Notes under the pieces: model-generated
The model's input: only the letters and a program-made list of their open reading frames with translations
Databases searched by the model: none
What the model was told of the DNA's origin: nothing
Part shown: positions 30,901-62,515 of the stretch, one piece after another
Layout of the letters: the number at the start of each line of letters is the position of its first letter
How positions within the stretch are numbered: the stretch's first letter is position 1
Position numbers and translations under genes: made by a program
NCBI GenBank assembly: GCA_951217055.1
Contig: OX578276.1
Location: 17,963,430-18,027,429, forward strand
Length of the DNA: 64,000 nucleotides
Reading direction: 5' to 3'
DNA from: Gerris lacustris
Taxonomy: Eukaryota; Arthropoda; Insecta; Hemiptera; Gerridae

Positions 30901-30907
30901 GAATGGT

Positions 30908-30923
30908 GGTCCTGAAAAGGACC
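30908..30923 (-). promoter_or_regulatory. Histone 3' stem-loop of H2A copy 1
   Basis: Minus-strand GGTCCTTTTCAGGACC, 30 nt after the H2A stop. It fits the metazoan replication-dependent consensus GGYYYUHHUHARRRCC, with ACGGTCC and ACCACC flanks as in the other histone genes here. It directs SLBP/U7-dependent cleavage without a poly(A) tail. Confidence 0.95.
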
Positions 30924-30953
30924 GTTTGATCGTGATTCCTGGATGCAGGTTTT

Positions 30954-31564
<611 letters not shown>

Positions 31565-31936: not shown

Positions 31937-31961
31937 ACAGTGCCGGAGGGTTTATCAAAAC

Positions 31962-31977
31962 GGTCCTTTTCAGGACC
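31962..31977 (+). promoter_or_regulatory. Histone 3' stem-loop of H2B copy 1
   Basis: GGTCCTTTTCAGGACC with AAAAC before and ACC after, 25 nt past the H2B stop. Confidence 0.95.
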
Positions 31978-32717: not shown

Positions 32718-33561
32718 CAGTAAAACCTGCTAAAGTGACCACCCGTGTATATTGACCACCTGGTCAATGTGACCACTTTTTCATGGTCCCTTCAGAAATT
32801 CCATACTTTCTGTACATTTTCTTCTGCTTATTGTGACCATCTGCCTATTTTGACCAGTGACCACCTTCTTCTGGTCCCTTGAAGGAAATTTATTTCGGTT
32901 AAAGTGACCAAAGTAAAAAAACGATAAGAAAAAAAAAAAAATAATAATATTTTAGAGTACCTATAATAATGTTAAAACATTGGTTTTAATTGAATTTCTT
33001 AGAACTCATATACTAGTTGTTGCAGTATGAATAAAACCCACTTCACTTTCTTCCTGTTTTATAAGAACTATTTAGAAGGATTTTAATTCAAAGAAATTAG
33101 TAAAATGAAATAATTCTTGTTGGTTCTTAGAGTTGACTATAAATAGTAGAACATTTCTCTGTATTTTTTTTTTTTTTTTTTTTCACTTCATGCTCATTTC
33201 TTTGGAATAGCTTCTTTTTGTCTGTTAGCTGATTTTATTTCATGTTCAGTTGTTAGTTTGATTTAAAAGAAGAAAGGTGTAACTATTATTAATGTTATTA
33301 CGTGCATTGTGTATTTTGAGCTGAAATTATCTCGAAAAAATTTTAGATTTTACAATTGCATGTAAGTACATTCAATACATGTTACTACACATGTTTTTTT
33401 TATCTTTTTATAAAAAAAAGTCTCATCTCGTTTTGGCCTAAATTGCAAAAAATTAGCTAATCATACTTCAGAAAGGTTTTATTTTTTACTCTAATTAAGA
33501 TTTTTTTTACTCTTTTCTATAAACTTATGTGTGTAACATTACAGAAAAACCAAGAACGAGC
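32718..33561. mobile_element. pogo-like MITE, truncated by the duplication breakpoint
   Basis: It starts CAGTAAAACCTGCTAAAGTG after a TA, as in pogo/Tigger-type elements. The distal end is lost at the inner inverted-duplication break. The complete copy is at 50817-51757. Confidence 0.75.
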
Positions 33562-33606
33562 GCCAAAAAGATAGAGAGTTGGTGGTCGTGAGGGAATTAA
33601 CAGTGA

Positions 33607-34917: not shown

Positions 34918-37580
34918 CAGTGGCGATCCTGGCTCAAAAGTTCAGGGGGGGCTAAAGCCCCCCATGTTTTGCGGGTGTAGTATACATTTTAATATACCAG
35001 GAAGGACTCATTTGTATGTTATATGTTGTTGCAGTCCTTCCCAGAGGCAATTCTAGGCAATTTTTTCGTGAGGCTAAACAATTAAATTCATTCAAGAATG
35101 TTATACTTGCCATTGAACTGGGACTGGGAAGTTCTATTGTAAGTATAGTTGGGGCTTATCTAAAGTCTCCTATGATACTTACCATATCATCACAGAAGAA
35201 AGTATTGGTCTTTAAATAATAATCATTTTAACATGAGGATAACAAAAGGATTGGTTTAAAAACTGTAAAGGTTAATTAAAAACTTATAAATTGTCAGAAA
35301 CCATATAATATTTATAGATAACAAAAATGTTAAAATTAACATGGACGTCGACAGCAGTGCATTATTGGAAGGAAAATATATAAAATATGACCTCTCAAAA
35401 CAGCGTTTTTATGCTTCTTTGAGGTGAAATTTGATTTTAATTCTTTTTCATAAAATAAATTAAACTACTTTAGTTGGCACAAAAGTATGCACAAGTACTT
35501 TAATTTTTAAATTAAATCAAATTATAATTATTATTAACAATGGGAAATAGACAGAGAAAAATAGACCCCTGCACCGGGACTCGAACCATATATATTATAT
35601 ATATAATATATTTCCGTTACAGTGCTCTGACCAACGAAAACATTTTAATACAATCTTAAAAATAGTAATTGTAAAATAATAAAAGTTGTGCACCTAATCA
35701 TGGCAGATTAAATAGATCAGGTAATAGCAATTATGCAATATTACTTCACATCTATAATAAACTGTGTCATTTTTTCAATAGTTGTGAAAAACATGTTTTC
35801 TTAGGGTGGTCATAATATAAAGTTTAGTCCAAAATGGGACATTGAATTTTGGGAAGGTGGTCGAGCTATTGTAGCCCCCCGACGAAAGTGGGGGCCCTAG
35901 CAAAAATTTGATAAAGAAAAGATTAGGTTAGATTAGGTTTTCGGACATTATTGGTAAAACTTCAACTGCACTACTTGGCCCACCTATTTCGTACTGTCCG
36001 ATTTACTTAATTTTTTTTTTACAGAATTTGTCTTTTTTACAGTATCTCTGAGCAAAAACGATTCCGGTTGTAGCATCTCGATAAAATCAGAATTATATTT
36101 TATTTATTTATTTTTATTTTTTTTATATTCGCAAAGTGTCACGTTTAAGGGGGCAATGATAGAAGGTCAAAAAAATGTAAACTTAACCTAATTTTCGTGC
36201 ACAAAATTGTCAATTTTTGAAAATTGGGGATGCACTCCCAGAATTTTCATTGCCCCCACAATAAGGTATAAAAATGAATTATTTCAAAATTTTAGGACCA
36301 GCCGTTATAGTTGGGGGGGGGGGGGGATTTTGTTTGGGTATATTATGATTTATTTAACCAATAAGGAATGCAAAATTTAAAAAAGAAAATATATATTTGT
36401 AACTTACGATTCAGCATCTTTCATTTGATACCTACTCGAAACTTTAAAAAAATATAAATTTTTGAGTTTACCACATTTTTGCGACTTGAACAATGCTCAT
36501 ATTTAATTTTTAACTTCTTCCCGTGAAAATATAAACTTAAAACTACAAAATCATCATTAAATTATTTTATCTACTTGCGGCAGCAAAATGAGGCAGTATT
36601 GAACTGATTTCGGGCAGAGAAATGTGATTTTACTGCCTAGGCGGTAAAATGAGGAAACATTAAAGATGGCTAGGCAGCAACATTTTTACTTTTATAATGT
36701 TGGCAATGACAGTTAATACTATTATCTCAATCTTATAAAATTATATATATTATAGTTTAATAAGTAATATTTAATAAATAACCGTTTTTATAATAAAATA
36801 ATTTGTTTATATTTGTTAATTCTGTTAAATAAGTTCAATGAATAGTAGATCTTTAATTAAAAAAAATACGGTCACTGGCCACACTGCAGCTTCATGAAAA
36901 CATCCAACATCCATTATATTGTTGAAGTCATTCTAGATTAGACTAGCTACTTTTCTTGATTTATCCTAGTTACTTCTTTTCTTTAAGCAGAAGCAGAAGA
37001 ATATATCTTTAATACTTTTGTTAATTTGTTAGTAAAAATATAAATAAATATTTTATGTTCCGTGCATTATTCATTCAGAAGTTATGTATGCTATGAACGT
37101 GTGTTTTGTATTTTGTTGTTATAGCATCACTTTGTTATTCACAATTTTTATTATTCCCAAGCTTCATATTTGATTTCTTTATCAACATTAATTATAGTTA
37201 ATACTTATGTTATCTTATTAATATGACACATAGTAATTAGCTATGTTATATTAATAAAGATAGTATTTTAGCAGTTTAATTTTTCTGCCGCCCGTAGATA
37301 AAATATTGTATGCAACAGCAACAAGGCAGCAAAGGAAACATTTCTGCCTCGTTTATTCATAGCCTGTCCTTCGGCTCGGAGGCTAATCAGTACTTCAGTC
37401 GGATACTACTTCGGAGGCTAAAAATAATAATAATAAAAAATAAAAAATTTCTTCAAAAAAATTTAAAGGTGGGCTAATTTTCTTTCGGGGCCTCGGGGGG
37501 TCTAATTTTCTTCCAGGGGGGGCTAATTTTCTCCCAGGGGGGGCTATAGCCCCCCCTGCCCCCCCCTAGGATCGCCACTG
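34918..37580. mobile_element. hAT-type element of 2.7 kb inserted in the H1 3' flank
   Basis: It starts CAGTGGCGATCCT and ends AGGATCGCCACTG, with the 8-bp duplication ACTAGAAC at 34910-34917 and 37581-37588. G-rich and C-rich blocks (GGGGGGGCTA, TAGCCCCCC) lie just inside both ends. No complete transposase is seen; a 67-codon ORF at 35016-35219 is unrecognised. A tRNA-like segment lies inside. Confidence 0.88.
35557..35640 (-). other. tRNA-like relic or SINE head inside the hAT element
   Basis: The minus strand reads GTTGGTCAGAGCACTGTAAC (box A and D-arm style), then an AT-rich insert where the anticodon arm should be, then GGTTCGAGTCCCGGTGCAGG (box B and T-arm style). No anticodon stem can be formed, so it is not a working tRNA. 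Confidence 0.5.
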
Positions 37581-37598
37581 ACTAGAACAAGGTTTGGT

Positions 37599-37614
37599 GG
37601 TCCTGAAAAGGACC
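37599..37614 (-). promoter_or_regulatory. Histone stem-loop of the truncated H1 copy
   Basis: Minus-strand GGTCCTTTTCAGGACC, 23 nt beyond the stop of the truncated H1. Confidence 0.93.
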
Positions 37615-37637
37615 GTTTGTACTAATATATAATAAGT

Positions 37638-38195
37638 CTACTTCTTAGCAGGTTTCTTGGTGGCAGCAGGTTTTTTGGTTGCCGCGGCCTTCTTCGGCTT
37701 GGCTGGTGATTTCTTGGCCGCTGGTGTCTTCTTGACCGTAGATGCCTTTTTAGCGATGGTCTTCTTTGCCTTGGGCACCTTAGGTTTGGTTGGAGTTTTG
37801 GCGGTTTTCTTCGCTTTCACCGCGGCCACTTTAACCTTCTTAGCAGCAGTCTTTTTAGGGGTACTAGCAGATTTAGTCTTCTTCTCGGCGGAAGCCTTCT
37901 TGGCCCGTGGTTTCTTCACAGATGCACCTTCAGAAGAGGCCTTAGCCAACTTGAATGAGCCGGATGCGCCCTTCCCTTTAGTCTGGAGGAGAGTGCCTGC
38001 GACAACGGCCGACTTGAGGTACTTCTTGATGAACGGGGCGAGCTTCTCGGCGTCGATCTTATAAGTGGTGGCGATGTACTTCTTGATGGCTTGGTTGGAT
38101 GAACCACCTCTCTCCTTCAAGGCTGCTATGGCGCTCACGACCATCTTTGCCGTAGGAGGGTGAGCGGGCTTTTTGGCAGCAGAGCTGGCCTTCTT
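37638..38195 (-). pseudogene. 5'-truncated tandem copy of histone H1
   Basis: It is nearly identical to the full H1 at 38282-38917 but starts inside the KKASSAA segment, about 26 residues into the protein. Upstream it joins C-rich sequence and the end of the neighbouring hAT element (the CCTAGGATCGCCACTG phrase). The open frame runs on to a GTG at 38220-38222 made from the transposon end; there is no ATG. The repeat offset is 644 bp. One visible difference from the full gene is VKKPRAKK where the full gene has VKKPLAKK. The winged-helix domain, basic tail and 3' stem-loop are kept, but the promoter and start codon are lost. Confidence 0.88.
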
Positions 38196-38242
38196 CCCCC
38201 TGCCCCCCCCTAGGATCGCCACTGACTAGAACAAGGTTTGGT

Positions 38243-38258
38243 GGTCCTGAAAAGGACC
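38243..38258 (-). promoter_or_regulatory. Histone 3' stem-loop of H1
   Basis: Minus-strand GGTCCTTTTCAGGACC, 23 nt after the H1 stop. Confidence 0.95.
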
Positions 38259-38281
38259 GTTTGTACTAATATATAATAAGT

Positions 38282-38917
38282 CTACTTCTTAGCAGGTTTC
38301 TTGGTGGCAGCAGGTTTTTTGGTTGCCGCGGCCTTCTTCGGCTTGGCTGGTGATTTCTTGGCCGCTGGTGTCTTCTTGACCGTAGATGCCTTTTTAGCGA
38401 TGGTCTTCTTTGCCTTGGGCACCTTAGGTTTGGTTGGAGTTTTGGCGGTTTTCTTCGCTTTCACCGCGGCCACTTTAACCTTCTTAGCAGCAGTCTTTTT
38501 AGGGGTACTAGCAGATTTAGTCTTCTTCTCGGCGGAAGCCTTCTTGGCCAGTGGTTTCTTCACAGATGCACCTTCAGAAGAGGCCTTAGCCAACTTGAAT
38601 GAGCCGGATGCGCCCTTCCCTTTAGTCTGGAGGAGAGTGCCTGCGACAACGGCCGACTTGAGGTACTTCTTGATGAACGGGGCGAGCTTCTCGGCGTCGA
38701 TCTTATAAGTGGTGGCGATGTACTTCTTGATGGCTTGGTTGGATGAACCACCTCTCTCCTTCAAGGCTGCTATGGCGCTCACGACCATCTTTGCCGTAGG
38801 AGGGTGAGCGGGCTTTTTGGCAGCAGAGCTGGCCTTCTTCTTAGCAGGAGTGGATTTACCCTTTTTAGGGGAAACCGGGGCAGGAGCTGCGACTTCAGTT
38901 TCAACCGTGTCGGTCAT
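38282..38917 (-). CDS. H1: Histone H1 (linker histone)
   Basis: A linker histone of 211 residues with no intron. The acidic/proline N-terminus [20 protein letters not shown] leads into the globular winged-helix domain, about residues 37-110, with [37 protein letters not shown] and the [16 protein letters not shown] wing. The tail is Lys/Ala/Pro-rich with many PKK and KKA repeats and ends KKPAKK. It binds linker DNA at the nucleosome exit and compacts chromatin. The start ATG is at 38915-38917 (minus). A TATA-like CACTATAACAT lies about 40-50 bp upstream. The 3' stem-loop marks it as replication-dependent. It appears to be the only complete H1 in the window. Confidence 0.96.
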
Positions 38918-44231: not shown

Positions 44232-46476
44232 ACCAACTCTCTATCTTTTCACTTATCACAATTGTGAACGTCTAGGTCTAGAGGCATATATGTCCGTAAC
44301 TAGTCAAAGCATCTTATGTATCCTGTCCTTGTAAGGTTCAGGACCCATGAGGTGGAGGGTTGAGAGAGCCCTTGCAGTTAACAACCTGTCTGTTTAATAT
44401 ACCAGACAAGTAGTGCTGGGCGATTCTCGATTTTTCAGAATCGATTCCAACCCTCAGAATCGTAGGAATCGATTCGTAAGGGGGGGGGGGGGTAGTGTAC
44501 GAGATATCTGGTGGACGCGAGCCTCTCCCGCTCCCCTACACCTACAGGATTTTAATACAATGAATAAATTACTAAAATAGGGTAAACTACCTTCGTCCAT
44601 TTATCTTATATTGATAAGAACACAAAAAAATCTACAAACTATTAGAAAATTACGTTGTAACTGACTATCTGACAGGTTAACGTTAACAATAAGCAATTGA
44701 ATCCACACACACACATATACCACCTTCTTTTCATATTATATTCAATTAAGTAACTGAGTAAAAGTTACAATCGGAAGGACTCGTATCTATTCTGAGGTAT
44801 AGAATCGAAAGGAACCGATTCTGTGTTGGAATCGAAAGGATTCGATTCCCAGGTAGAATCGCAAGGCACCGATTCTGAGGTGGAATCGAAAGGAACCGAT
44901 TCTGTGTTGGAATCGAAAGGATTCGATTCCCAGGTAGAATCGAAAGGAACGGACTCTAATCCGAGATCCGATTCCTCATGTTTATACATGTCTTTTCCAC
45001 CTATCAACATATACATTGATAAATTATATTTAATAATAATAATACATATATTTATAACAATATGTCAATATGTACACAAATTATCTTCGTAAAATTATAT
45101 TTGCCTTGAGCTCTTTATTGCTAAATATAATACGATAAATATTAGGATTTTTGATTTTTGTAGAGAGTGGAGAATTATACCGTTTTAGTACCTAAGTAAG
45201 TACCTGTCCTGGTTATGGTTAAAATATATTTTAGAAATGCTAGAATGGAATATCCGGTATAAGATTGTGAACGGAACCCATTGTGAATGAGGTAGAAGTA
45301 GGAGAGGAGGAACCGATTCCTAGGTAGAATCGAAAGGATTCGATTCCAAGTTGGAATCGAAAGGAACCGATTCTCAGGAGAATCGCAAGGAAACGATTCC
45401 AAACCGAGATCCGATTCCACATTATGTTTTATACTTGTTCTTTTCACTACCAACTGATACATTTTTTCAGGGTATGCACAAATATTGAGAAATTATATTC
45501 TATAATTAAGTGACAGGTCAAATAAAAAAAATATTCAAAACAACTCAAAACTCAAATTATCTTAAAATCTTAATATAAAAAAAAATTAAGATAATTTGTG
45601 TTTTTTTAAATTTAGATATACAATATAGTAAAGAAAACAGCAGTTAGATATGCAATATAATTTTCAATACTTATGATGCAATAATCAGAAAAAAGAATAA
45701 TGGACGATTGTGGAAAGTGGATAAGAACATATATAATGAATAGGGAACCGATTCTGAGGTGGAATCGAAAGGATTCGATTCCCAGGTAGGAATCGATTCC
45801 GTAACGGAATCGAAAGGAACCGGTTCCGTAACGGAATCGAAAGGAACCGATTCCGTAACGGAATCGAAAGGAACCGATTCTGTGGTGGAATCGAAAGGCT
45901 TCGATTCCCAGGTAGAATCGAAAGGAACCGATTCTAATTTGACTCCATATGTTTTAAACATGTCTTTTCCACCACATTTGTTTAGAGCTTAGGGTATATT
46001 GCAACATATATATTGAGAAATTATATTTCATAATTTATTTATATTTATAAAATAATAACAAAACACAAATTATCCCCGTAAAATGTTATATGCCTTGAGT
46101 ACTTTGCAGAACATAATATGATAAATACATATTTAGATTTTTATAGAGAGTGGAGAATTATACAATTTTAATACCAAGTTCTAGTTAAACTATATTTTAA
46201 AGTGCTAGAGTAGAATCTCCGGTATGAGATTGTCAACGGAACTGATTGTAAATGAGGTAGAAGTAGGAAAGGAGGAACCGATTCTGTGTTGGAATCGAAA
46301 GGATTCGATTCCAAGGTAGAATCGCAAGGAACCGATTCTGAGGTGGAATCGAACGGGGTTTTTTCAGGGTATTGCATCATATATATTGCGAAATTTTATT
46401 CAATAATTGAATAATATTTATATATTTATGAAAAAAATTAACAATACCAAATTTACATTGTGCGTATAAATAATAT

Positions 46477-48627: not shown

Positions 48628-49874
48628 GATTGTATTTTAGCGCTCTTAAAATATAGTTTAACTAGAACTTGATATAATAACGTTATAATTTCCACTCCCT
48701 ATAAAAATCTAAAATCTCATTACTTATTAGTTATTAATTATGTACAGTGAAAGTGTTCAAGGCATTCAACACTTTTGAAGCAAGTTTGGTATTGTTAATT
48801 TTTTTCATAAATATATAAATATTATTCAATTATTGAATAAAATTTCGCAATATATATGATGCAATACCCTGAAAAAACCCCGTTCGATTCCACCTCAGAA
48901 TCGGTTCCTTGCGATTCTACCTTGGAATCGAATCCTTTCGATTCCAACACAGAATCGGTTCCTCCTTTCCTACTTCTACCTCATTTACAATCAGTTCCGT
49001 TGACAATCTCATACCGGAGATTCTACTCTAGCACTTTAAAATATAGTTTAACTAGAACTTGGTATTAAAATTGTATAATTCTCCACTCTCTATAAAAATC
49101 TAAATATGTATTTATCATATTATGTTCTGCAAAGTACTCAAGGCATATAACATTTTACGGGGATAATTTGTGTTTTGTTATTATTTTATAAATATAAATA
49201 AATTATGAAATATAATTTCTCAATATATATGTTGCAATATACCCTAAGCTCTAAACAAATGTGGTGGAAAAGACATGTTTAAAACATATGGAGTCAAATT
49301 AGAATCGGTTCCTTTCGATTCTACCTGGGAATCGAAGCCTTTCGATTCCACCACAGAATCGGTTCCTTTCGATTCCGTTACGGAACCGGTTCCTTTCGAT
49401 TCCGTTACGGAATCGAATCTCAGGTAGGAATCGATTCCTACCTGAGATTCGATTCTAGGACAAGGGAATCGATTCCCAGAATCGAAGGGGTAAGAATCGG
49501 GTACCCGATTCTCAGAGAATCGATTCCCCAGCACTACAGACAAGATTCAGGGTACGGGTGGGTTGTTCCTAGTTTATCTATTATTCAGTACTACCAGATA
49601 CAGGTACTCGTATGTACCTGTTTCAAGTACCTAGGTACTTCCTCGAATACTTCATACTACTAAATTTACCTCCCGGCGGGACATGGATCCCAGGGCTCTG
49701 AGGGTCCCGCCGTCACTGAGTACTCCTAATCCCAATAATACTTTACTTTTACTTTCATTTTTTTTTTTTTTTAAGAAAAAATAGATAAAGGTCGAACCTT
49801 TATTTATAAAAAAATAAAAACCAACTCAACGAAATTACAGTAAAAAAGAAAATTGTAATGGTTTTATTTTTTAA

Positions 49875-50816: not shown

Positions 50817-51757
50817 CAGTAAAACCTGGATAAGGTGACCACCGAAGGGACCGACCAAAAGTGGTCACCTTAGGCAGGTGGTCAACATACCCAAAATAAG
50901 TTTAAAAAAATGCGCTCGTTCTTGGTTTTTCTGTAATGTTACACACATAAGTTTATAGAAAAGAGTAAAAAAAATCTTAATTAGAGTAAAAAATAAAACC
51001 TTTCTGAAGTATGATTAGCTAATTTTTTGCAATTTAGGCCAAAACGAGATGAGACTTTTTTTTATAAAAAGATAAAAAAAACATGTGTAGTAACATGTAT
51101 TGAATGTACTTACATGCAATTGTAAAATCTAAAATTTTTTCGAGATAATTTCAGCTCAAAATACACAATGCACGTAATAACATTAATAATAGTTACACCT
51201 TTCTTCTTTTAAATCAAACTAACAACTGAACATGAAATAAAATCAGCTAACAGACAAAAAGAAGCTATTCCAAAGAAATGAGCATGAAGTGAAAAAAAAA
51301 AAAAAAAAAAATACAGAGAAATGTTCTACTATTTATAGTCAACTCTAAGAACCAACAAGAATTATTTCATTTTACTAATTTCTTTGAATTAAAATCCTTC
51401 TAAATAGTTCTTATAAAACAGGAAGAAAGTGAAGTGGGTTTTATTCATACTGCAACAACTAGTATATGAGTTCTAAGAAATTCAATTAAAACCAATGTTT
51501 TAACATTATTATAGGTACTCTAAAATATTATTATTTTTTTTTTTTTCTTATCGTTTTTTTACTTTGGTCACTTTAACCGAAATAAATTTCCTTCAAGGGA
51601 CCAGAAGAAGGTGGTCACTGGTCAAAATAGGCAGATGGTCACAATAAGCAGAAGAAAATGTACAGAAAGTATGGAATTTCTGAAGGGATCATGAAAAAGT
51701 GGTCACATTGACCAGGTGGTCAATATACACGGGTGGTCACTTTAGCAGGTTTTACTG
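50817..51757. mobile_element. Complete pogo-like MITE, 941 bp
   Basis: The ends CAGTAAAACCTGGATAAGG and TTAGCAGGTTTTACTG are flanked by TA. The terminal regions are full of GTGACCAC and GGTCAC words. No transposase ORF is seen. It spans the inner breakpoint of the large inverted duplication. Confidence 0.85.
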
Positions 51758-52497
51758 TATATTGAACTTTTTACGCACAGAAAATTACGTTTTTCAGTCA
51801 TGATATGAATCTACTTATTATTATAAGCTGTGGAGAGTTTGGAGATGCATCGTTAATCTTCAATGTCAATGAATGAAATGTTGTGCTGCTACAACCACAT
51901 CTTTGACTGAATTCAGTTTTTTCTCTTAGCTCTCGATTCCTCATCATATCTTTCCTTGAAATTCCAATTTAACATCTCTTTGTAGATACTTATCGAAACC
52001 CTTATGCCGAGGGTAATGTGTTTTTGTGTCGCGTGTTTTTGAAAGAGTGAGACAGCTATAGAGACGTCTGAGTGGAGATGTCGAATAGGGTTGGGACATA
52101 GATGTCGATATATCTTTTTCGATCCCAATTCTTCTCCTGCCCTGAAGCCTTCAACATAATTTACGAATAATTGTTTTCAAGCGACACGAATAACGTTTAA
52201 TATCGTTTCGAGGTTTGATGTCGCAATGCATTAAATTGTAGGTGGTTAGATACCTAGATCTCGTAAACGCGCGATTTTCAGACACATGTTCATAAGAAAC
52301 TTACTGCTTACCCAAACGGGAGTTCATACCATGAACATTACACCCCCACTAGTCTGGCAAAACAATTGTATATTGCGCTATATCATTAAGAGTCACCTAT
52401 TGAAGTTACATCACGTACGCTTTGAGGCCAGGGACGTCGCGTTTTAGGTGTTAAATATTTAATCAGAATTAAGAGTGAATGACATCATAAATTTGGT
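51758..52497. other. 3' flank of H2B copy 2, non-coding
   Basis: Inverse of 31978-32717. No gene supported. Confidence 0.5.
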
Positions 52498-52513
52498 GGT
52501 CCTGAAAAGGACC
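52498..52513 (-). promoter_or_regulatory. Histone 3' stem-loop of H2B copy 2
   Basis: Minus-strand GGTCCTTTTCAGGACC, 25 nt after the stop. Confidence 0.95.
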
Positions 52514-52538
52514 GTTTTGATAAACCCTCCGGCACTGT

Positions 52539-52910
52539 TTACTTAGAACTAGTGTACTTGGTAACAGCCTTGGTGCCTTCACTGACAGCGTGCTTGGCCA
52601 ACTCTCCAGGGAGAAGCAGCCTCACGGCCGTTTGAATTTCCCGGCTGGTGATGGTCGACCGCTTGTTGTAGTGAGAGAGGCGAGATGCTTCGGCGGCAAT
52701 GCGCTCGAATAAATCGTTAACGAAACTGTTCATGATGCTCATGGCCTTAGAGGAGACACCGGTGTCGGGGTGAACTTGCTTCAGTACCTTGTAGATGTAG
52801 ATGGCATAGCTCTCCTTCCTCTTACGCTTCTTCTTCTTGTCGCTCTTGACGATGTTCTTCTGAGCCTTGCCGGCTTTCTTGATGGCTTTACCGCTGGCTT
52901 TAGGAGGCAT
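52539..52910 (-). CDS. H2B: Histone H2B (copy 2)
   Basis: It encodes the same 123 residues as copy 1, from MPPKASGKA to TKYTSSK, with an intact 3' stem-loop. Its 5' side is altered. An LTR element begins 40 bp before the ATG, between the ATG and the TATA box that copy 1 uses. The native CCAAT and TATA elements now lie more than 5 kb away beyond the insertion. The adjoining U3 of the LTR reads in the opposite direction. The coding sequence is intact, but transcription from the native promoter is doubtful. Confidence 0.95.
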
Positions 52911-52950
52911 GATGTCGTTGATGATGAGTGATATTGACACTGTTGTTGAA

Positions 52951-53097
52951 TGATACCGTGAGTTCGCCCTGCTCTCTCAATTGGCGCAAAGTCAACCAGG
53001 TTATTCAAATCCCAGGTATGTGATTGGTTGTCCAAAGAGAGAGATCCGAACCAATCAGGTTCAAGCTTTTTCCCACGTTCCTATATAAGGAGCGCAA
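52951..53097 (+). repeat. 5' LTR, first part (split by the inner element)
   Basis: The U3 region with CAATTGG, ATTGG, CCAAT and CTATATAAGG. The inner element interrupts it just after the TATA box. Confidence 0.9.
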
Positions 53098-53142
53098 TGA
53101 TACGGCCTGGTTTGTGGAGGGCCGTGTCACGGGGGTGATGAT

Positions 53143-53158
53143 GGTCCTGCAAAGGACC
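53143..53158 (-). promoter_or_regulatory. Variant histone stem-loop in inner 3' LTR (second in sense)
   Basis: Element-sense GGTCCTTTGCAGGACC. The 6-bp stem and the AACG/ACCA flanks are as in histone genes; loop TTGC replaces TTTC. Confidence 0.8.
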
Positions 53159-53202
53159 GTTGGGCCTGGTAGGTCGAAGGCCAAGGTGGCGAAGGTGCTG
53201 GT

Positions 53203-53218
53203 GGTCCTGGAAAGGACC
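53203..53218 (-). promoter_or_regulatory. Variant histone stem-loop in inner 3' LTR (first in sense)
   Basis: Element-sense GGTCCTTTCCAGGACC with AAACG before and ACC after; loop TTCC replaces TTTC. Confidence 0.8.
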
Positions 53219-53486
53219 GTTTGGGTGTCGATGAAGGGGCAGGGTCTCAAGTCAAAGACAACACGGTGTATGCTTGAGGTCTGGGCGACTGGAGTGGCAG
53301 AAGAGTGGTGGAGTTCAGGTGGCCTCTGAGCTTTGATGAAGCTCAGGAGGAGGTCTCTGAGCTTGGAAGAAGCTCAGGACGGATCTTATCTTCTGCCTCG
53401 CTGGGCAGGGTATATATAGGAATTCAATAGGCGAAAGAGAGGGGCAAGGACCAATGAGAGAGCTCGGGACGGGAAAAGCTCGCTTC

Positions 53487-55319
53487 TCATTGGTCCGGCC
53501 TATTGAATGATGGTTTAACAAAACTAGGTGTTTTCTGGCTTGAGTCGGGCGGTATCAACTCCCCCAACACCCCAGACAGAAAACACCTCTTGTAAGAAAG
53601 CCGCGATGTGCCACTCGCCTGTGCACTCCAGTGTCCAAACAGTTTATTGGAATTAAAATACAACAACTTTACATACAATAGATAGTAAGGAGTGATGACG
53701 GGTGCGAGCTGCGGAGAAAGCACAGGCTGGGAGGCATGAGTGTGGTGGATGAGTGGCGACGGCTGCGGCGGAAGTTCAGGATGCTGTAGGGCGGCGGGCG
53801 GTGTTAAGATGACAGTGTCAGGTGGCGGGGGGACAGGGTCAGGTGGTGGAGGGACAGGGTCAGGTGGTGGAGGGACAGGGTCAGATGACAGAGGGTCCGG
53901 GTCCAATGATCGAGAGTCTTGGTCAAGGTCCGGTGGATGCGGGACAGGGCCAGTTGGAAGAGGGTCCGGTGGCAGAGGGTCAGGTGAATGCGGGACAGGG
54001 CCTGGCAGAAAAGAGACAGGAGGTGGTGAAGTGAGCGCTGGCTGAAAGGGCGAAGGAGTCTTCGACGATAGCACAAGCTGCAGAGGGAGCACTGGCCGTG
54101 GGGACGTACAAGTCTCCGCCAGAAGCGCTGGGCGAGGTACATCAGGTTTCGGAGGGAGCGCTGGATGTAGAGGTAGCGCTGAGTGTAAGAGCAGAGGAGT
54201 CCCGGGTGGTAGCACAAGCTGTGCTGGAGGATATACAGCAGGCTGCGGAGGGAGCACTGGCTGTGGGAATGGAGGTGTCTCCGGCGGTAGCACTGGCTGT
54301 GGAGGTAGCGCTGGCTGTGGAGGTAGCGCTGGCTGTGGAGGTAGCGCTAGCTGTGGGGACGGAGTAGTCACCTGTTGTAGAGGTCCAGCTGGCTGTGAAG
54401 TGAGGGCTGGCTGTGGGGAAAGGGAAGACCATGGTGGAGTGAGAGGTTCCAGAGTCTGCGCTGGGTGACCTGTTTGCGGAAGGAACGATGCCTGCGATGT
54501 TTGCATCGTCGGTGGAGGAACAGATGGCAGGGCAGGCTGTTGCGACGGCATGGCAGCGTATGAGGGCCAGTTTGTGTGAGGTGGCCAGGCAGGTTGAGTG
54601 TACCCACCGTACGTTGGGTAGCTGGGCGGCGTAGAGTAGCCGAGCGGTGTAGAGTAGCCTGGCTGAGCTGTGTACGGTGACCAAGCAGGTTGCTGTGTCG
54701 GCAGAGTAGGTTGCGGCGTCGGCAGGGCTTGCGGAGTCGGCAGGGCTTGCGGAGTCGGCAGGGCTTGCTGCGACGGCAGGTCAAGGTGCTGCGACGGCTG
54801 GGCAAGGTGCTGCGACGGCTGGGCAAGGTGCTGCGACGGCTGGGCAAGGTGCTGCGACGGCTGGGCAAGGTGCTGCGACGGCAGGGCAAGGTTCTGCGAC
54901 GGTAGGGTGAAGTTCTGCGACGGCAGGGCAGGTTGCTGCGATGGTTTTCCGAACCGCTCGCTGAGACGTTCCTCCAAGTGCTCTAACGTTTCGTCAATGT
55001 ACCATGTGTTCTCCCACCAGGCTTTCGCAGCGCCGGTGAGCTGTTTCAACGCAGCGAAGAATTGTCTCTCTCCAGTGATGTTCATGGCCTGGAGGTGAAT
55101 CCTGATGTCTCGAATGAACGCAGCCAGGTCCTCGTTTTCAGCTCCGGAGAAGCAAGGCAGCGGCTTGCTCATGTAGGGGTGCATCGGCACTGCCCAAGGC
55201 GGGTGGTGATACGGATAACCGTATGGTGGATAACCATAGGTGGGGTATCCGTACGGTAGATGAGGGTACCCAGGCGGAGATTGCTGAGGAGGGGCTGATG
55301 AATGGTGTGGACAGTTCAT
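53487..55319 (-). CDS. Gag-like capsid protein with a long Pro/Gln-rich tail (inner LTR element)
   Basis: The first ATG in frame is at 55317-55319 (minus), giving about 610 residues; a GTG lies four codons upstream. The N-terminus is Pro/Tyr-rich (repeats of YGYPPYGYP style). About residues 50-130 look like the retrotransposon Gag/capsid fold (Ty3/Arc type): LPCFSGAENEDLAAFIRDI, AALKQLTGAAKAWWEN and LEHLEERLSERFGKP fit the F-G, L-G-A-W and F spacing of that family. Then come seven-residue SQHLAQP repeats (21-bp units, about 54776-54915) and several hundred residues of Pro/Gln/Leu-rich repeats. No Cys-His zinc knuckle, protease or reverse transcriptase is present. The frame ends inside the 3' LTR. 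It probably packages the element's RNA; the enzyme source must be another element. Confidence 0.75.
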   Translation of the reverse strand: MNCPHHSSAPPQQSPPGYPHLPYGYPTYGYPPYGYPYHHPPWAVPMHPYMSKPLPCFSGAENEDLAAFIRDIRIHLQAMNITGERQFFAALKQLTGAAKAWWENTWYIDETLEHLEERLSERFGKPSQQPALPSQNFTLPSQNLALPSQHLAQPSQHLAQPSQHLAQPSQHLAQPSQHLDLPSQQALPTPQALPTPQALPTPQPTLPTQQPAWSPYTAQPGYSTPLGYSTPPSYPTYGGYTQPAWPPHTNWPSYAAMPSQQPALPSVPPPTMQTSQASFLPQTGHPAQTLEPLTPPWSSLSPQPALTSQPAGPLQQVTTPSPQLALPPQPALPPQPALPPQPVLPPETPPFPQPVLPPQPAVYPPAQLVLPPGTPLLLHSALPLHPALPPKPDVPRPALLAETCTSPRPVLPLQLVLSSKTPSPFQPALTSPPPVSFLPGPVPHSPDPLPPDPLPTGPVPHPPDLDQDSRSLDPDPLSSDPVPPPPDPVPPPPDPVPPPPDTVILTPPAALQHPELPPQPSPLIHHTHASQPVLSPQLAPVITPYYLLYVKLLYFNSNKLFGHWSAQASGTSRLSYKRCFLSGVLGELIPPDSSQKTPSFVKPSFNRPDQ

Positions 55320-55388
55320 GATGGGCGCCACTGGGTTTTACACTCCCAGAAGTGATGTTCGACTAGCAGAGCGTGGGTGGATGTGCGT

Positions 55389-55406
55389 GCCCCACGTTGG
55401 GCGCCA
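55389..55406 (-). other. Primer-binding site of the inner element (tRNA-Lys CUU)
   Basis: The minus strand reads TGGCGCCCAACGTGGGGC three nt inside the 5' LTR. It is complementary to the 3' end of insect-type tRNA-Lys(CUU) plus CCA. Confidence 0.9.
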
Positions 55407-55454
55407 ATATGATACGGCCTGGTTTGTGGAGGGCCGTGTCACGGGGGTGATGAT

Positions 55455-55470
55455 GGTCCTGCAAAGGACC
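55455..55470 (-). promoter_or_regulatory. Variant histone stem-loop in inner 5' LTR (TTGC loop)
   Basis: Same as 53143-53158. Confidence 0.8.
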
Positions 55471-55514
55471 GTTGGGCCTGGTAGGTCGAAGGCCAAGGTG
55501 GCGAAGGTGCTGGT

Positions 55515-55530
55515 GGTCCTGGAAAGGACC
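55515..55530 (-). promoter_or_regulatory. Variant histone stem-loop in inner 5' LTR (TTCC loop)
   Basis: Same as 53203-53218. Confidence 0.8.
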
Positions 55531-55873
55531 GTTTGGGTGTCGATGAAGGGGCAGGGTCTCAAGTCAAAGACAACACGGTGTATGCTTGAGGTCTGGGCGA
55601 CTGGAGTGGCAGAAGAGTGGTGGAGTTCAGGTGGCCTCTGAGCTTTGATGAAGCTCAGGAGGAGGTCTCTGAGCTTGGAAGAAGCTCAGGACGGATCTTA
55701 TCTTCTGCCTCGCTGGGCAGGGTATATATAGGAATTCAATAGGCGAAAGAGAGGGGCAAGGACCAATGAGAGAGCTCGGGACGGGAAAAGCTCGCTTCTC
55801 ATTGGTCCGGCCTATTGAATGATGGTTTAACAAAACTAGGTGTTTTCTGGCTTGAGTCGGGCGGTATCAGCAA

Positions 55874-56423
55874 AATCGAAGCTAAGACACACCGCATGCT
55901 CCGAAAGCTAAACAGCTCCACCAAGCAAGAAGCCACGATAGCCAGAGAGCGGCTCCGGCCCCTCTGGCAAACAGTCAGACAACAGTGAAGCCAATCAACC
56001 ACAGTCATTTACTCTTCTCCATCTCTCTCTTCAGGCTCCCACTCCATCCTGGGACCTCGGCCCCTCGAGAACTTTCACTCTCAACTCTGCTTGTTTGTTG
56101 TCTTCACCTTTCCCATCTCTCTACTCTTCGGGTGCAGTCCTTTCCGCTGTGAATAGCTCCTTTGCGCTGTCTCTAAGGAATTTCTAGCGCTTGGAAGGGA
56201 AACCGACCTTGCGCTGTCCTTGGAGAATTTAGCGCTTGGGATCTGTTGGCAGTGGAAGGAGAGTTTGTCTGGCGGCTTACTGCGCTGGCCTAGCGGCATT
56301 AGCGAGGTAAGTCACAGGGAACTCCCCCCTGCATCCCGAAGAGTCCCTAAACGGTCCTTTTCAGGACCACCTCAAAGTTTGTTTCGCCGCAGAAACATCG
56401 TGACCCACTTTCGCGCCGTATCA
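55874..56423 (+). repeat. 5' LTR of the outer element, second part
   Basis: Continues the split LTR, with a canonical histone stem-loop 55 bp before its end. It matches 57604-58153. Confidence 0.9.
56353..56368 (+). promoter_or_regulatory. Canonical histone stem-loop inside the outer 5' LTR
   Basis: GGTCCTTTTCAGGACC preceded by AAAC and followed by ACC, exactly the histone-gene version, in the sense direction of the element. Confidence 0.9.
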
Positions 56424-56425
56424 TT

Positions 56426-56443
56426 TGGCGCCCAACGTGGGGC
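56426..56443 (+). other. Primer-binding site of the outer element (tRNA-Lys CUU)
   Basis: TGGCGCCCAACGTGGGGC two nt after the 5' LTR. A second partial copy, TGGCGCCCAAC, lies about 115 bp further on, near 56542. Confidence 0.9.
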
Positions 56444-57456
56444 CTACGACTGTGATCTAGGCCTTCGGCACAACCCACCATCTACTGTCAAGCTAGTCAT
56501 CTTCATCGCAACTTCTTTTTCTGGCTTTTCAATAAAAGCCAGTGGCGCCCAACTTCGTTTTCACTTTTAACCTTTCTCCAAGATTTCATCCTCTTCATGC
56601 CTAATATCTACGTTTCCTTCTACCACAACACCGCTCTCATTCTCTGTCACGATCACTCTAGCAGCCCATCACAGCCAGCGTTCTCTCTTTACCCTGCTGT
56701 ACCGCCACCAGCATCTGCCATGACGCCACTGCCTGCTCTCGCGTCACCACTTTTCCTCTCTCGCTACAGCAGCCTGTCCTGCGATGCAACAGCCGCCTGC
56801 CAGTCGTCGCAGCAGCCTGTCCTGCCACCGTACAGCCGCGTCCGCCGCCTAAGCCTGACCTCACGTGGCAACAGCTGCCTGCCGACGCTGCAGCCTGTTC
56901 CGCCGTCGCAACAGCCGCCTGCCTGTCTCCCTCACCACAGCCGCCTGCCTGCCGACCCAGCAGCCTGTCCTGCGATGCAACAGCCGCCTGCCAGCCGTCG
57001 CAGCAGCCTGTCCTGCCACCGAACAGCAGCCGCGTCCGCCGCCTAAGCCTGACCTCACGTGGCAACAGCTGCCTGCCGACGCTGCAGCCTGTTCCGCCGT
57101 CGCAACAGCCGCCTGCCTGCCGTCGCAGCAGCCTGTGGTCCCCAAACAGCACGTGACCGCTGAGCAGCATGTGTGGTTCCTTGGACAGCATGTGATCTTC
57201 TCCGACGCCGCCGGACTCAGTACAGTAACGTTAATCATCACCCAGCTTATTGATCCTCTCGCCTGTAAAATAATATAAAATTTGTTCTCTTTTTCTTATT
57301 TTAAGTCTCATCACTGTAAATGAGCATTTTCCATGAATAATATTGTAACTCTCCATCTTTTCTCTTTTGTATTTTATCAGAATGTTAATAAACTTGTTTT
57401 CAGGGAGGTTTGAGGAGTGTAGTCTGTTCGACTTTGCGTCAAAAGTAGGGGGGAAT
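56444..57456 (+). other. Internal region of the outer LTR element
   Basis: CAGCAGCCTGTCCTGC-type repeats give open frames in several phases (longest 149 codons, 56597-57046) rich in Pro, Gln, Ala and Arg. It resembles the low-complexity tail of the inner Gag, without the capsid core. A direct repeat of about 210 bp is visible (about 56800-56890 against about 56985-57075). AATAAA occurs near 57388, about 65 bp before the 3' LTR. I call no protein here. Confidence 0.5.
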
Positions 57457-58153
57457 TGATACCGTGAGTTCGCCCTGCTCTCTCAATTGGCGCAAAGTCA
57501 ACCAGGTTATTCAAATCCCAGGTATGTGATTGGTTGTCCAAAGAGAGAGATCCGAACCAATCAGGTTCAAGCTTTTTCCCACGTTCCTATATAAGGAGCG
57601 CAAAATCGAAGCTAAGACACACCGCATGCTCCGAAAGCTAAACAGCTCCACCAAGCAAGAAGCCACGATAGCCAGAGAGCGGCTCCGGCCCCTCTGGCAA
57701 ACAGTCAGACAACAGTGAAGCCAATCAACCACAGTCATTTACTCTTCTCCATCTCTCTCTTCAGGCTCCCACTCCATCCTGGGACCTCGGCCCCTCGAGA
57801 ACTTTCACTCTCAACTCTGCTTGTTTGTTGTCTTCACCTTTCCCATCTCTCTACTCTTCGGGTGCAGTCCTTTCCGCTGTGAATAGCTCCTTTGCGCTGT
57901 CTCTAAGGAATTTCTAGCGCTTGGAAGGGAAACCGACCTTGCGCTGTCCTTGGAGAATTTAGCGCTTGGGATCTGTTGGCAGTGGAAGGAGAGTTTGTCT
58001 GGCGGCTTACTGCGCTGGCCTAGCGGCATTAGCGAGGTAAGTCACAGGGAACTCCCCCCTGCATCCCGAAGAGTCCCTAAACGGTCCTTTTCAGGACCAC
58101 CTCAAAGTTTGTTTCGCCGCAGAAACATCGTGACCCACTTTCGCGCCGTATCA
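57457..58153 (+). repeat. 3' LTR of the outer element (uninterrupted, 697 bp)
   Basis: Shows the whole LTR: CAATTGG at about 57485, ATTGG at 57529-57533, CCAAT at about 57556, the TATA box CTATATAAGG at 57588-57597, the stem-loop at 58083-58098 and the end CGTATCA. No AATAAA was found in the LTR. Confidence 0.92.
58083..58098 (+). promoter_or_regulatory. Canonical histone stem-loop inside the outer 3' LTR
   Basis: GGTCCTTTTCAGGACC in sense, about 490 bp after the TATA box and 55 bp before the LTR end. If cleavage follows the loop, U5 would be about 50 nt. Confidence 0.9.
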
Positions 58154-58215
58154 TGAATGTGCTTATAAGCTAAGTAATAGACAAAAGACGTATAAAACCC
58201 CGCACCAATAGAAAT

Positions 58216-58778
58216 TAGAGGCGGAGAACTATCGATAGTTCCGACCATCGATAGTTTTCGATAGTTCGGCCACCGACCATCGATAACTATCGATAGTTTT
58301 CGATAGTTTTTTAAACTCACCCCCCCCCCCCCCTCCACTTAGGAAAATCAGTATAATTTACTTACAAAATTATAATTTATCAAAAACTATCGATAGTTTT
58401 TTTTAACTTAACCCCCCCTCATTCCCACTTAGGAAAATCAGTATCATTTACTTACAAAATGATAATTTATCAAAAACCATCGATAGTTTTTTGATAAATA
58501 ACCCCCCCCCCCTCCCTCCCACTTAGGAAAATCAGTATCATTTACAAAATGAATAATTTATCGAAAACTATCGAAGATTTTTTAAATTCTTACTATAAAT
58601 GATAAGAAATAAAAGGGATAGACAAGCAAAATATTACGAAAAGGTTAATTTTTTAAATTTAACAGTAAGTAAAAAACTATCGGTTGACTATCGATAGTTG
58701 AAAATAAACCATCGATAGTCACCGATAGTCAAAAACCATCGATAGTCCGATAGTACCATCGATAGTTCTCCGCCTCTA
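58216..58778. mobile_element. hAT-type MITE packed with TATCGATA-like sites
   Basis: The ends TAGAGGCGGAGAACTATCGA and their inverse, and the 8-bp duplication ATAGAAAT (58208-58215 and 58779-58786), are confirmed by the empty site at 31467-31474 in copy 1. The 563-bp interior has at least three copies of a roughly 85-bp unit with a C-run, CCACTTAGGAAAATCAGTAT and CTATCGATAG-type palindromes. No ORF is present. Confidence 0.92.
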
Positions 58779-58786
58779 ATAGAAAT

Positions 58787-59299
<513 letters not shown>

Positions 59300-59329
59300 A
59301 AAACCTGCATCCAGGAATCACGATCAAAC

Positions 59330-59345
59330 GGTCCTTTTCAGGACC
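59330..59345 (+). promoter_or_regulatory. Histone 3' stem-loop of H2A copy 2
   Basis: GGTCCTTTTCAGGACC, 30 nt after the stop. Confidence 0.95.
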
Positions 59346-60317
59346 ACCATTCAAGTTCAAACACCTCTTTTGGTTCCTAGGTTTTAAGGAAGTCCAGATA
59401 AGTTGAAAGTTCTAATGCTGTGCTTGCTTGAGATAAGGAAAAACTCCAAAGTTGTAGGCTGTGGCAGATGTCGAATTACAATTGGGTGGGTATTATTATA
59501 GGAGTAAGTCGTTAGTTTTGATGCCGTCGATTCCGGTTTCCATGTTACATCGGGGCAAACAATTTAGAGGTACAGTTCTTTTTCGTGGAACGGACACAGA
59601 AGATAAATACGTATAATTAAAAATAAAATACGAAGTATTTTGGTATGTGTAAAAAAAAAAATTAGATAGATTATTATATTTTAAAATAAAAAATGATACA
59701 TACATCGACGGCTTGGAAGAAGACCGTCACAAAACCGTGTTTTCAAATTTTACAGGAGAAGCAAAAGAAAAAGTGACTATTTTTTTTTATGTCGAATTGA
59801 CCCTATGGTAGTTGGATTTGCTTAATAGTATATTAACTTCTTCTCTATAATTCAGAAAACCTAGCCACACTACTAATTTTTACATATTAAGCTCAGTGCT
59901 TAATTTTTAGGCAATTTTTCAATTAAAATCAGTACTTGTGACGATTTTCCATAAAAAAAAAAATAAGAAAATTGCATATTAGTACACAAGGGTTTAAAAT
60001 AATTTGGTAAGACATTTTTTATAAATTAACATACGTAATTTATTTACTAAAATTAAAAGTACAAAAATCAACATCATACATAAACTATATAACATGTCAA
60101 ATAAAATGAGATCAGGCACAATTCCATTTAGTCTTTGTCTTTAGTTAGTAAATTCAGTGTTGAAATAAATATGGCCTGTTAGTGACAAGGCTATCGCATT
60201 TAGACAAGTAACTTATTTTTAAATGTTCTTTTGTTTTACATAATTCTTCTTAAATAAATAAAGACTTAAATATAGTAATACTGAAAATCAATTGACTTAG
60301 GTTCTTAGTCTATACCA
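59346..60317. other. 3' flank of H2A copy 2, non-coding
   Basis: Inverse of 29937-30907; no gene supported. Confidence 0.5.
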
Positions 60318-62515
60318 GGGGTTCCCAACGGGGTCCAGGTGGCACCCCTTGGGGGTCTATGGAAATTTAAAAGGGGTCAATAGTATTCCAGGGATCTACT
60401 GCGTCTGCACAGACGACAGACGACTGACAGACATTTTTTAAAAACCACTTTTTTTACTAGAAGCCAAATACCACGAAAAGGTTTTGCGCCGGGAGGTTAC
60501 AATCCTAGATAATAGGTTACAATTAAACCTCAACAACAAGAGAAGGTTATAACTTATAACTCGTGAACGTTGTATGGGTTTACTGAACAGTATGTTATGC
60601 GTTACTTTTTTAGTATTTATCTGTATACATATAATAGTAATTAATAAATAAATTGTAAAATGTAGTAAATCAGAGTTTTCGGGGGGTAGCGCCCCTAAAT
60701 TTGGAGCTAAAATTCGTTTCTCGATTTAGCCTCGGAGTGTGATTTTTCTGAGCATGTATGCCAAATTTCGTCAAAATCGGCCCGGTAGTTTAGGCTCCAG
60801 GCATCTGCACAGACATTTTTTGAAAACCACTTTTTTGGACTCAGGGGGCCTCAAAACGTGAAAATCCATCAAAATCGAATTTTCGTGCGATCACAATACT
60901 TTCTCTTCATATGAGAAAGTAAAAAATAAAAACAGTTTTGAGTCTTTATTATAATATTATAAAAATATTAATAATATTAAATAAATATTATTTATTATAA
61001 TCGATAAATAATTATACAATCATTGCTGCAATAAACATTAAAATGCATAAGCAGTATATTATGCATAGGTATTGTACGCTATACTTGTATTTTTTTTTAC
61101 TTATTAAAAAAAATAGATATAGTATAAAACATATCAGGTAGGTATAAAAGGTTAAAAAAAAAAATAATAATAATAAAAAAATAAAATAAAATATTATGAT
61201 AGTTATAATTCAAACACAAATAAAATAAGTTATACATTTTTATGTCTTTATAAAATGAAGGAATGATTATTTTATTTATTAATTGAACTAAAGCGTCCTT
61301 TTTTTTACCATTGTGTCCCGTTTTTGTTTATAAGCTGATGTTTGTTTAACCTTTTTTATTTCGGTGGATTTCCTTCTTGCTGCTAAATTTTTGTCTTCCA
61401 AACAACTTAAATGAATAATATCGACACCATCACAAGGTCTGGAGTCCAGGTAGCGCACTGAACACTCTACTGCCTCCAATTATTAGACTTCACTTGGATA
61501 GGGTTTTTATAGAATAGACATTTTTTTAAAAATCGGTAATTTACATATTTATTTTTATAAAATCATCCCTAATATGCCATACACTGCTGGATGGATACGA
61601 AATATAATTTTTTACAACACTAGTTTGTTCGCCCACTTAGAATTAGAACTTTTTGAAGTTGTAGGTATCGCTTTAATGCTTATTTGTAGGTATAATAGCG
61701 TACTTATTCGCCAACATTTCTAAACTTTTTACCAATTTCTATCAATTGGAGTTATTGTTTGAGCCAACAAGGCCCCCCCCCCCCCCTTTGACTCCCAATT
61801 TCTACTTCTCTGACTACAATTTTGAAAGTTTTTCAAAATTTGAAAAGAACATTATTTATCTACGATTGATACGAAATATAAACATTGTATCTCTGTTTAG
61901 ATGCGTAGAAAGTGATTCTTTACGTAATTGTATTCATGGCGCATGCGTGTTTCATAATTCCTTTTTTTCCGCCCTAATGTGGTAAAAGAGAAGAATTCTT
62001 CTCCTTAAAGCACGATCAGCGAGTTTGTTAACATTTAACAAAACTAATTTGCTGTTTGTTTAATTAAAGTAACTGTTAATATAGAGTTTTTTGTTTTAAA
62101 AACAATTATTGATTTATGTCATTATGGCGAAAATGAGGAGAATAATACTCCTCCCGAAATAAATAATTCGGCTCAAAATACAGCTAATGAATTATTGTCA
62201 TCTTTATCAAATGATCAAAAGAGAAATACGAACTTACAAACAGAAAGTTTATTAAATATTTTTTCTGTATTTATTATTAAAATCCAACCATCGTAGATAA
62301 AGTACGGTACGCAACTTGTGCGAAAACTGAATTTTGTTTTACTCTTGTGGTTTTACTACCCCCGCTGTCGCTCGGGTGCAAACTCCACACTCGCATTAAA
62401 AACGTTACTTTCCACACTAGAAGCGGGGGGTTAACAACTACTGCTCTAGCTTACAAACAATAAGGCGTTAAATTATATCTTTTATATATTTAACATTTTC
62501 TATATTCTCCTATTA
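60318..62515. other. Rearranged end of the right arm, non-coding
   Basis: It begins with the end of the 26-30 kb hAT (ACCAGGGGTTCCCAACG at about 60315), then fragments of its interior and a copy of the dispersed GAGAAAG repeat. From about 60930 it is an inverse copy of 24094-25640. No gene is seen. Confidence 0.55.

Follow-up and report, generated by a model that had tools for sequence, protein, structure and literature searches.

LTR retroelements of the Ty3/Gypsy type and their non-autonomous derivatives are recognised by LTRs with TG...CA ends, 4-bp target duplications, a primer binding site (PBS) and a polypurine tract, and in every LTR retroelement known to us the RNA ends at a polyadenylation site within the LTR. 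In HIV-1, the poly(A) signal lies in R and its copy in the 5' LTR is suppressed by a nearby splice donor. In yeast, TFIIIB or Pol III directs Ty3 and Ty1 to Pol III genes, and the Drosophila element 297, which duplicates ATAT, was reportedly found by Ikenaga and Saigo in 1982 in the TATA box of an H3 histone gene; we know of no histone hairpin in 297 LTRs. Histone mRNA 3' ends are formed by the SLBP/U7 pathway, an account of which is given in PMC7026596. Among the listed titles and abstract openings of open-licence papers we found no description of an LTR element with a histone hairpin, and the retroelement content of PMC5706932 concerns yeast Ty1.

The locus considered here lies in a window of 64,000 nt of Gerris lacustris DNA and invites comparison with each of these systems. 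The LTRs of its element A resemble replication-dependent animal histone genes (RF00032) in the hairpin, its flanks, a CCAAT/TATA promoter and the lack of AATAAA and ATTAAA, but here one or several hairpins are part of a mobile element's LTR, and no U7-pairing element has been defined. With Ty3/Gypsy-type elements and their derivatives, A and the nested element B have in common TG...CA LTRs, 4-bp duplications, a PBS, a polypurine tract and, in B, a gag-like stretch seen by eye; they differ in that the A and B copies read contain neither reverse transcriptase nor integrase, and in that a histone-type signal appears to replace the poly(A) signal. An LTR element at the TATA box of a histone core promoter is reminiscent of Drosophila 297 and 17.6, although the letters duplicated here differ from site to site and it is the distance to the TATA box that recurs; the 297 insertion is a precedent for the place and not for the hairpin. 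Yeast Ty3 and Ty1 likewise integrate close to where the genes of one multicopy class begin, but the targets here are Pol II histone genes. As in retroviruses such as HIV-1, a donor-like GAG|GTAAGT stands near the processing signal in each LTR of A; it lies, however, upstream of the signal and within R, the signal is of histone type, and the LTRs of B and of a third family, C, that were examined contain no such donor.

Taken together, the LTR hairpins and the insertions in the switches of histone genes suggest a group of elements that lives off the host's histone-making machinery. Judging from sequence, we consider it fairly probable (about 0.6) that these are a clade of LTR retroelements that would end their RNA by SLBP/U7 histone-type processing and would favour histone-type promoters.

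Elements A and B and their hairpins

Element A sits in the promoter between an H2B and an H2A gene (Table 1) and is identified as an LTR retrotransposon by its direct LTRs, TG...CA ends, PBS, polypurine tract and the target duplication TGAA (52947-52950 and 58154-58157). Its empty site is preserved near 31525, in an inverted copy of the H2A/H2B region; the two arms of this inverted duplicate (29851-33563 and 50912-60401) are 99.9% identical, and one is without element A. An earlier note, made from the window alone, had described two 697-bp LTRs that both carry the hairpin. The two are identical and both have it, but the 5' LTR is split by element B, of which that note makes no mention and which entered 10 nt past the start of TATAAG in that LTR's TATA box. 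B is likewise an LTR retrotransposon by its direct identical LTRs, its target duplication GCAA and its PBS, and it shares with A the LTR start TGATACCG, the LTR end CGTATCA and the PBS TGGCGCCCAACGTGGGGC, which we take, in A, to be of the tRNA-Lys type. All four B hairpins lie on B's own sense strand, two per LTR.

Judged by the copies read, A and B seem to be non-autonomous: Pfam gave zero matches in the reading frames scanned, gag-pol included. For B's gag-like N-terminal part, none of 135 candidates scored as a homologue, and no frame longer than 147 aa, as might mark an autonomous partner, was present at L079 and L080, where 4.9 kb and 3.0 kb of sequence were covered.

Table 1. Features of elements A and B and of neighbouring histone genes in the window, with A and B insertions in or near histone genes (positions are those of the window; insertions elsewhere are given by locus)
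Feature	Position or locus	Strand	Remarks
Histone H2B gene, promoter holds A	52539..52910	-	
Element A, whole	52951-58153	+	two identical LTRs
Element A 5' LTR, upstream part (U3; CCAAT, TATA)	52951..53097	+	identical to 57457-57603
Element A 5' LTR, second part, beyond nested insertion	55870..56423	+	identical to 3' LTR; starts with target duplication GCAA
Stem-loop, histone type, in A's 5' LTR	56353..56368	+	
Element A internal region, 1033 bp	56424..57456	+	no recognisable gag/pol in frames scanned
Element A primer binding site TGGCGCCCAACGTGGGGC	56426..56443	+	identical word present in element B
AATAAA upstream of A's polypurine tract, rival poly(A) site	57387..57392	+	
Element A polypurine tract AGGGGGG	57447..57453	+	
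Element A 3' LTR, 697 bp, TGATACCG...CGTATCA	57457..58153	+	
TATA box of A's LTR, TATATAAG	57588..57595	+	TATATAA in 30/30 A LTR copies
5' splice-site-like GAG|GTAAGT	58037..58042	+	46 nt upstream of stem-loop; 30/30 A LTRs
Stem-loop, histone type, in A's 3' LTR	58083..58098	+	
Histone H2A gene, other side of A	58925..59299	+	
H2A gene stem-loop (comparison)	59330..59345	+	
Element B, inside A's 5' LTR, antisense to A	53098..55869	-	target duplication GCAA
B 3' LTR, 460 bp	53098..53557	-	identical to B 5' LTR
B second stem-loop, 3' LTR	53143..53158	-	loop TTGC
B first stem-loop, 3' LTR	53203..53218	-	loop TTCC here; TTTC in L016, L017, L067
B open frame, 614 aa, proline-rich	53487..55331	-	gag-like stretch near N terminus, by eye; no Pfam match
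B 5' LTR, 460 bp	55410..55869	-	
B second stem-loop, 5' LTR	55455..55470	-	
B first stem-loop, 5' LTR	55515..55530	-	
A in H2B/H2A promoter	window		duplication TGAA
A in another H2B promoter, same nucleotide as window	L030/L029		duplication GGAC
A at H4/H3	L027		duplication CGAC
A at H4/H3 on C2	L041		duplication ATTC
A at H2A	L046/L062		duplication TTAT
A within H1 coding region	L025/L060		duplication CAGG
A adjoining H1-like gene	L039		
B at H2A	L007/L008		duplication AGTG
B at H2A/H2B	L067/L017		duplication GTTG
B at H4	L069/L082		duplication GGAT
B 1.2 kb from H1 gene	L016		

The earlier claim of a sense-strand hairpin with the flanks of the histone genes in both A LTRs holds: GGTCCTTTTCAGGACC stands at both positions, preceded by AAAC and followed by ACC as in the window's intact histone genes, so that A has the 16-nt stem-loop and ACC of a histone-type 3' end. 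A chance hairpin is ruled out by the 17 matches with at most three mismatches found in the window against 0.34 expected in shuffles. The best Rfam match is RF00032, the histone 3' stem-loop, both for the hairpin of the A LTR, at 28.2 bits (E 1.5e-5), and for that of the neighbouring H2A gene, at 31.7 bits (E 7.5e-7); neither reaches the gathering score of 34, and a scan at the gathering threshold returned 0 matches. Beyond AAC and ACC, 70 LTR/histone comparisons revealed no clear resemblance of the hairpin flanks to histone genes; they gave one weak likeness, of A to H2A, and few others. The former is a 9-mer, CCTGCATCC, common to the 56 nt upstream of A's hairpin and to the H2A gene at about equal distance; its likeness score was matched by three of 300 shuffles, a figure to be read against those 70 comparisons.

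Neither AATAAA nor ATTAAA nor any of six further variants occurs in A's 697-bp 3' LTR, and the absence of AATAAA, asserted earlier for this LTR, turns out to be a property of the family (AATAAA or ATTAAA in 0 of 30 A LTR copies). The CCAAT boxes and TATATAAG that had been noted in U3 are both present, as is the AATAAA said to lie near 57388; a second AATAAA is found in A's internal region at 56531-56536, about 108 nt from the start of that region and past the PBS. In all nine A copies with an internal end read, AATAAA followed by a G/T-rich stretch stands just upstream of the 3' LTR, and the window's B also has an AATAAA in the equivalent place. Within LTRs, neither signal occurs in the window's B or in the C LTR of L004, and the B copies L007/L008 have ATTAAA. 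The order TATA box, hairpin, LTR end, together with the lack of AATAAA and ATTAAA in the LTRs of A, agrees with a transcript beginning in U3/R and ending directly past the hairpin. Histone genes with the hairpin imply a host SLBP. A genome search for the U7 gene gave no match, as did the control genomes, and no shared purine block was obvious by eye in the window's histone genes.

Hairpins in other copies and LTR families

The genome (937 Mb) contains 361 perfect hairpins, 191 forward and 170 reverse, histone genes and LTRs combined; among the perfect hairpins listed, all but six fall in C1:15.0-18.1 Mb. When the genome was searched with the A LTR, 40 of 132 candidates were scored, and 39 of these span the hairpin site (L059 is truncated). 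Every one of the 39 has the hairpin, 33 of them perfectly and six with one end base altered, to T at the first base in five and at the last in one. A second search used only the pattern of LTR end plus PBS and was blind to the hairpin: one or two hairpins lie at most 200 bp upstream in 16 of its 18 junctions (those of L072, the window's B, being taken from direct reading of the window), 13 with at least one standard loop and three with TTCC/TTGC only. At L075 the LTR is again B-like and has a single standard hairpin, the hairpin is broken in L078, an old diverged A copy, and L079, a different element that shares the LTR end and the PBS, has none. The canonical loop of the histone hairpin, TTTC or TTTA, is present in A, in C and in some B copies; five of nine B LTRs (window, L007, L008, L069 and L070) have only TTCC and TTGC. 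The B copies were gathered from searches other than a genome search with the B LTR. Viral contigs yielded 0 with the hairpin and 0 with an LTR/PBS junction.

Family C, reached through the perfect hairpins of the genome, was seen in two solo LTRs, L002 and L004, of about 1.1 kb, with ends as in A and B and the duplications CCAT and TTGT. Each carries three hairpins, of which the middle one has A-U instead of the outer G-C, and these lie far from the LTR end (868-975 of 1100). Besides LTR ends, CCAAT/TATA words and short A-C blocks, A, B and C LTRs align little outside the hairpin; the pairwise alignments are best at the hairpin with AAC/ACC (A-B 24/26, A-C 21/21, B-C 22/24). A search with the C LTR gave 31 matches of 67-100% identity from 22 candidates, on many contigs. 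All 16 diverged relatives fetched (search identity 67-95%), chosen as places whose match included the hairpin part of the LTR, contain one to five sense-strand hairpins under a loose definition of at least 5 of 6 pairs and at least 10 of 16 letters, for which the window gives an expectation of about 0.03 per 280 nt. The loops are on the sense strand and, wherever hairpin and TATA box are both visible, downstream of the TATA box.

The idea was to be given up if most other copies lacked the hairpin, and the opposite was found: it is present in 39 of 39 A hits that span the site, in 16 of 18 junctions, in two more families of LTRs and in all 16 C relatives fetched. Copies on many contigs and three LTR types also rule out a one-off gene conversion from a histone gene. 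The earlier note had proposed a conservation test that includes paired substitutions. Of 35 distinct hairpins, 15 have G-C as their outer pair and 13 have A-U, and cells changed on both sides number 13 against 6.6 in shuffles, a count reached by 0 of 500; all of them are on the outer pair, one of six. Standard pairs make up 93.8% of pair cells, a value biased upward by the preselection for at least 5 pairs, and measures counting pairs or pair types show no excess over shuffles (476/500 and 490/500 shuffles reach them). Within A LTRs the hairpin shows no excess conservation (rank 307 of 682 windows), which says little because the A copies are recent.

Insertion sites

Histone genes have received nine insertions of A or B, mostly in core promoters and with differing 4-bp duplications; histone coding sequences were sought in about 1.5 kb of flank per side for most loci and in about 130 bp for L055-L058. 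Matching 4-bp duplications were found at 26 of 27 sites examined. The duplication begins 10 nt past the start of TATAA in the window's A, in L030 and in both cases of B inside an A LTR (GCAA in the window, GTGA in L032/L052), and 12 nt past it at L027, L041 and L055; the remaining TATA-associated sites lie within the TATA stretch or about 35-38 nt beyond. TTATA occurs within 10 nt at 8 of 27 sites, where nearby positions give an expectation of 1.95 (p 0.0005, under a post hoc rule and with five of the sites, L009, L010, L015/14 and two C sites, found via the hairpin pattern). Six junctions completed later show a TATA box at L055, at L058 and at the B insertion of L032/L052, and none at L056, L057 and L025/L060.

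The A LTR search provided 26 A sites with readable junctions (a junction being missing for L037, L051, L018, L054, L059 and the outer site of L032). Seven of these are in or beside histone genes. A TATA box is present at three others, namely L055, L040/L043 and L058 (the L058 site being in a B-like LTR), and 16 have neither. The LTR/PBS junctions fall in C1:15.0-18.1 Mb in 12 of 18 cases. Uniform-chance figures (3e-26 for 12 of 18, 7e-16 for 6 of 26) give a scale only, as they ignore array duplication and the post hoc nature of the rules.

L032 and L052 (C1:16.935-16.940 Mb) are a second case of B nested in A: the position within the LTR is that of the window's B, the LTR hit is the other one of the pair, and the duplication differs. 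At L058 (C10:23076100-23077050) the window's nesting is reversed, a B-like LTR having received an A LTR into its TATA box. Five full A copies have 0-3 differences between their two LTRs in about 690 positions, and in the window's A and B the two LTRs are identical; such near-identity indicates that the copies are recent. L060 and L025 (C1:15.6426-15.6451 Mb), which share the duplication CAGG, have LTRs that differ at 69 sites plus 60 gap columns, and this element is perhaps chimeric.

Readings of the RNA end and of the clustering

In the mechanism we propose, the histone-like U3 promoter, with its CCAAT and TATA boxes, would start the element RNA, and its 3' end would be formed a few nt after the LTR stem-loop through cleavage by SLBP and the U7 snRNP, by analogy with the known pathway; cleavage there would give A an R of about 480 nt and a U5 of about 50 nt. 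Since such cleavage would operate with no poly(A) signal in the 3' LTR, the RNA is expected to appear in S phase and to lack a poly(A) tail. The hairpin of A's 5' LTR may be skipped, or spliced out with the help of the GAG|GTAAGT upstream of it. New copies would go preferentially to histone core promoters and to the elements' own histone-like LTRs, often just past the TATA box, probably guided by the pre-initiation complex or the histone locus body. The fullest version, a histone-locus parasite that takes from its host the promoter, the poly(A)-free SLBP/U7 3' end and the S-phase timing and integrates close to the TATA boxes of histone genes and of its own LTRs, is tentative, and we would give it slightly less than even odds. 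If the proposal is true, retrotransposition would be tied to S phase, the element RNA would escape poly(A)-selected RNA sequencing, and SLBP/U7 processing would be usable by a non-histone gene; the histone-promoter insertions are a natural test of integrase guidance to a Pol II core promoter and of effects on histone supply.

Several points stand against a histone-type ending. The hairpin in the 5' LTR should stop the RNA early unless it is suppressed, the several hairpins of C relatives exceed the need of one 3' end, and AATAAA is kept upstream of the 3' LTR in A and is present in the window's B; to these are added the non-standard loops of B, the broken hairpin of L078, the hairpin-free L079 and the ATTAAA of L007/L008, as well as the lack of excess conservation within A and of more pairs or pair types than in shuffles. 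Strong U7 pairing can, according to PMC7026596, substitute for SLBP, so the B loop variants need not be dead. The hairpin might instead be a selected SLBP-binding signal for export, translation, stability or packaging of an RNA polyadenylated at another site, as the multiple hairpins per LTR in B and C, the distance of the C hairpins from the LTR end and the AATAAA with G/T-rich sequence kept in A would favour. An RNA polyadenylated upstream of the 3' LTR would, however, be without the terminal R repeat that strand transfer requires, and 30 of 30 A LTRs are free of AATAAA and ATTAAA; we regard this reading as unlikely. Because all nine A copies keep the upstream AATAAA, some RNA at least may be polyadenylated, and a minor but serious possibility, compatible with histone-type processing, is that two kinds of RNA are made, a polyadenylated mRNA that stops at the AATAAA of the internal region and a genomic RNA whose end is set by the 3' LTR hairpin. 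Both signals do occur in the same copies, and B has its AATAAA in the matching place, but A's internal region encodes nothing recognisable, so no mRNA is needed.

It is also conceivable that the LTRs acquired histone DNA by recombination or gene conversion while living in histone arrays and that the hairpin is a by-product with no role. Many copies are located in such arrays, the hairpin is not excessively conserved within A, and the 9-mer shared with H2A would fit; yet three or more LTR types have the hairpin, as do C relatives on many contigs, with sense-strand loops downstream of the TATA box and G-C or A-U outer pairs, and the flanks past AAC/ACC are, the 9-mer aside, not clearly histone-like, all of which makes this origin very improbable. 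The preference for histone promoters has its own counterweight in the 16 of 26 A sites without a histone gene or a TATA box close by. Duplication of arrays together with their insertions, and poor removal there, could have produced the clustering instead of targeted integration. Arrays are duplicated, also in inverted orientation, L069 and L070 have a common 5' flank, and array duplication does contribute to the clustering. The differing duplications of the nine histone insertions nevertheless argue for separate insertion events, as do two A copies (LTRs differing at 17 sites) at the same nucleotide of two H2B promoters, with TGAA and GGAC, and the two entries of B into an A LTR at one position, with GCAA and GTGA; as a full account of the clustering, duplication is in our view quite unlikely.

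The window holds several further features. In the H2A promoter, an insertion at 58216-58778 with inverted ends TAGAGGCGGAGAACTATCGATAG and the 8-bp duplication ATAGAAAT, not present in the inverted copy near 31470, resembles a small DNA transposon of the hAT type, the type being suggested by the length of the duplication only. An H1 gene is tandemly duplicated at 37552-38840 (645-bp unit, 99.8% identical), and a perfect inverted repeat of 634 nt (45821-46454 and 48782-49415) encloses repeats of 27 and 8 nt. At 23-5311 lies a 1762-aa frame with SecA DEAD and P-loop domains (Pfam), in an animal genome.
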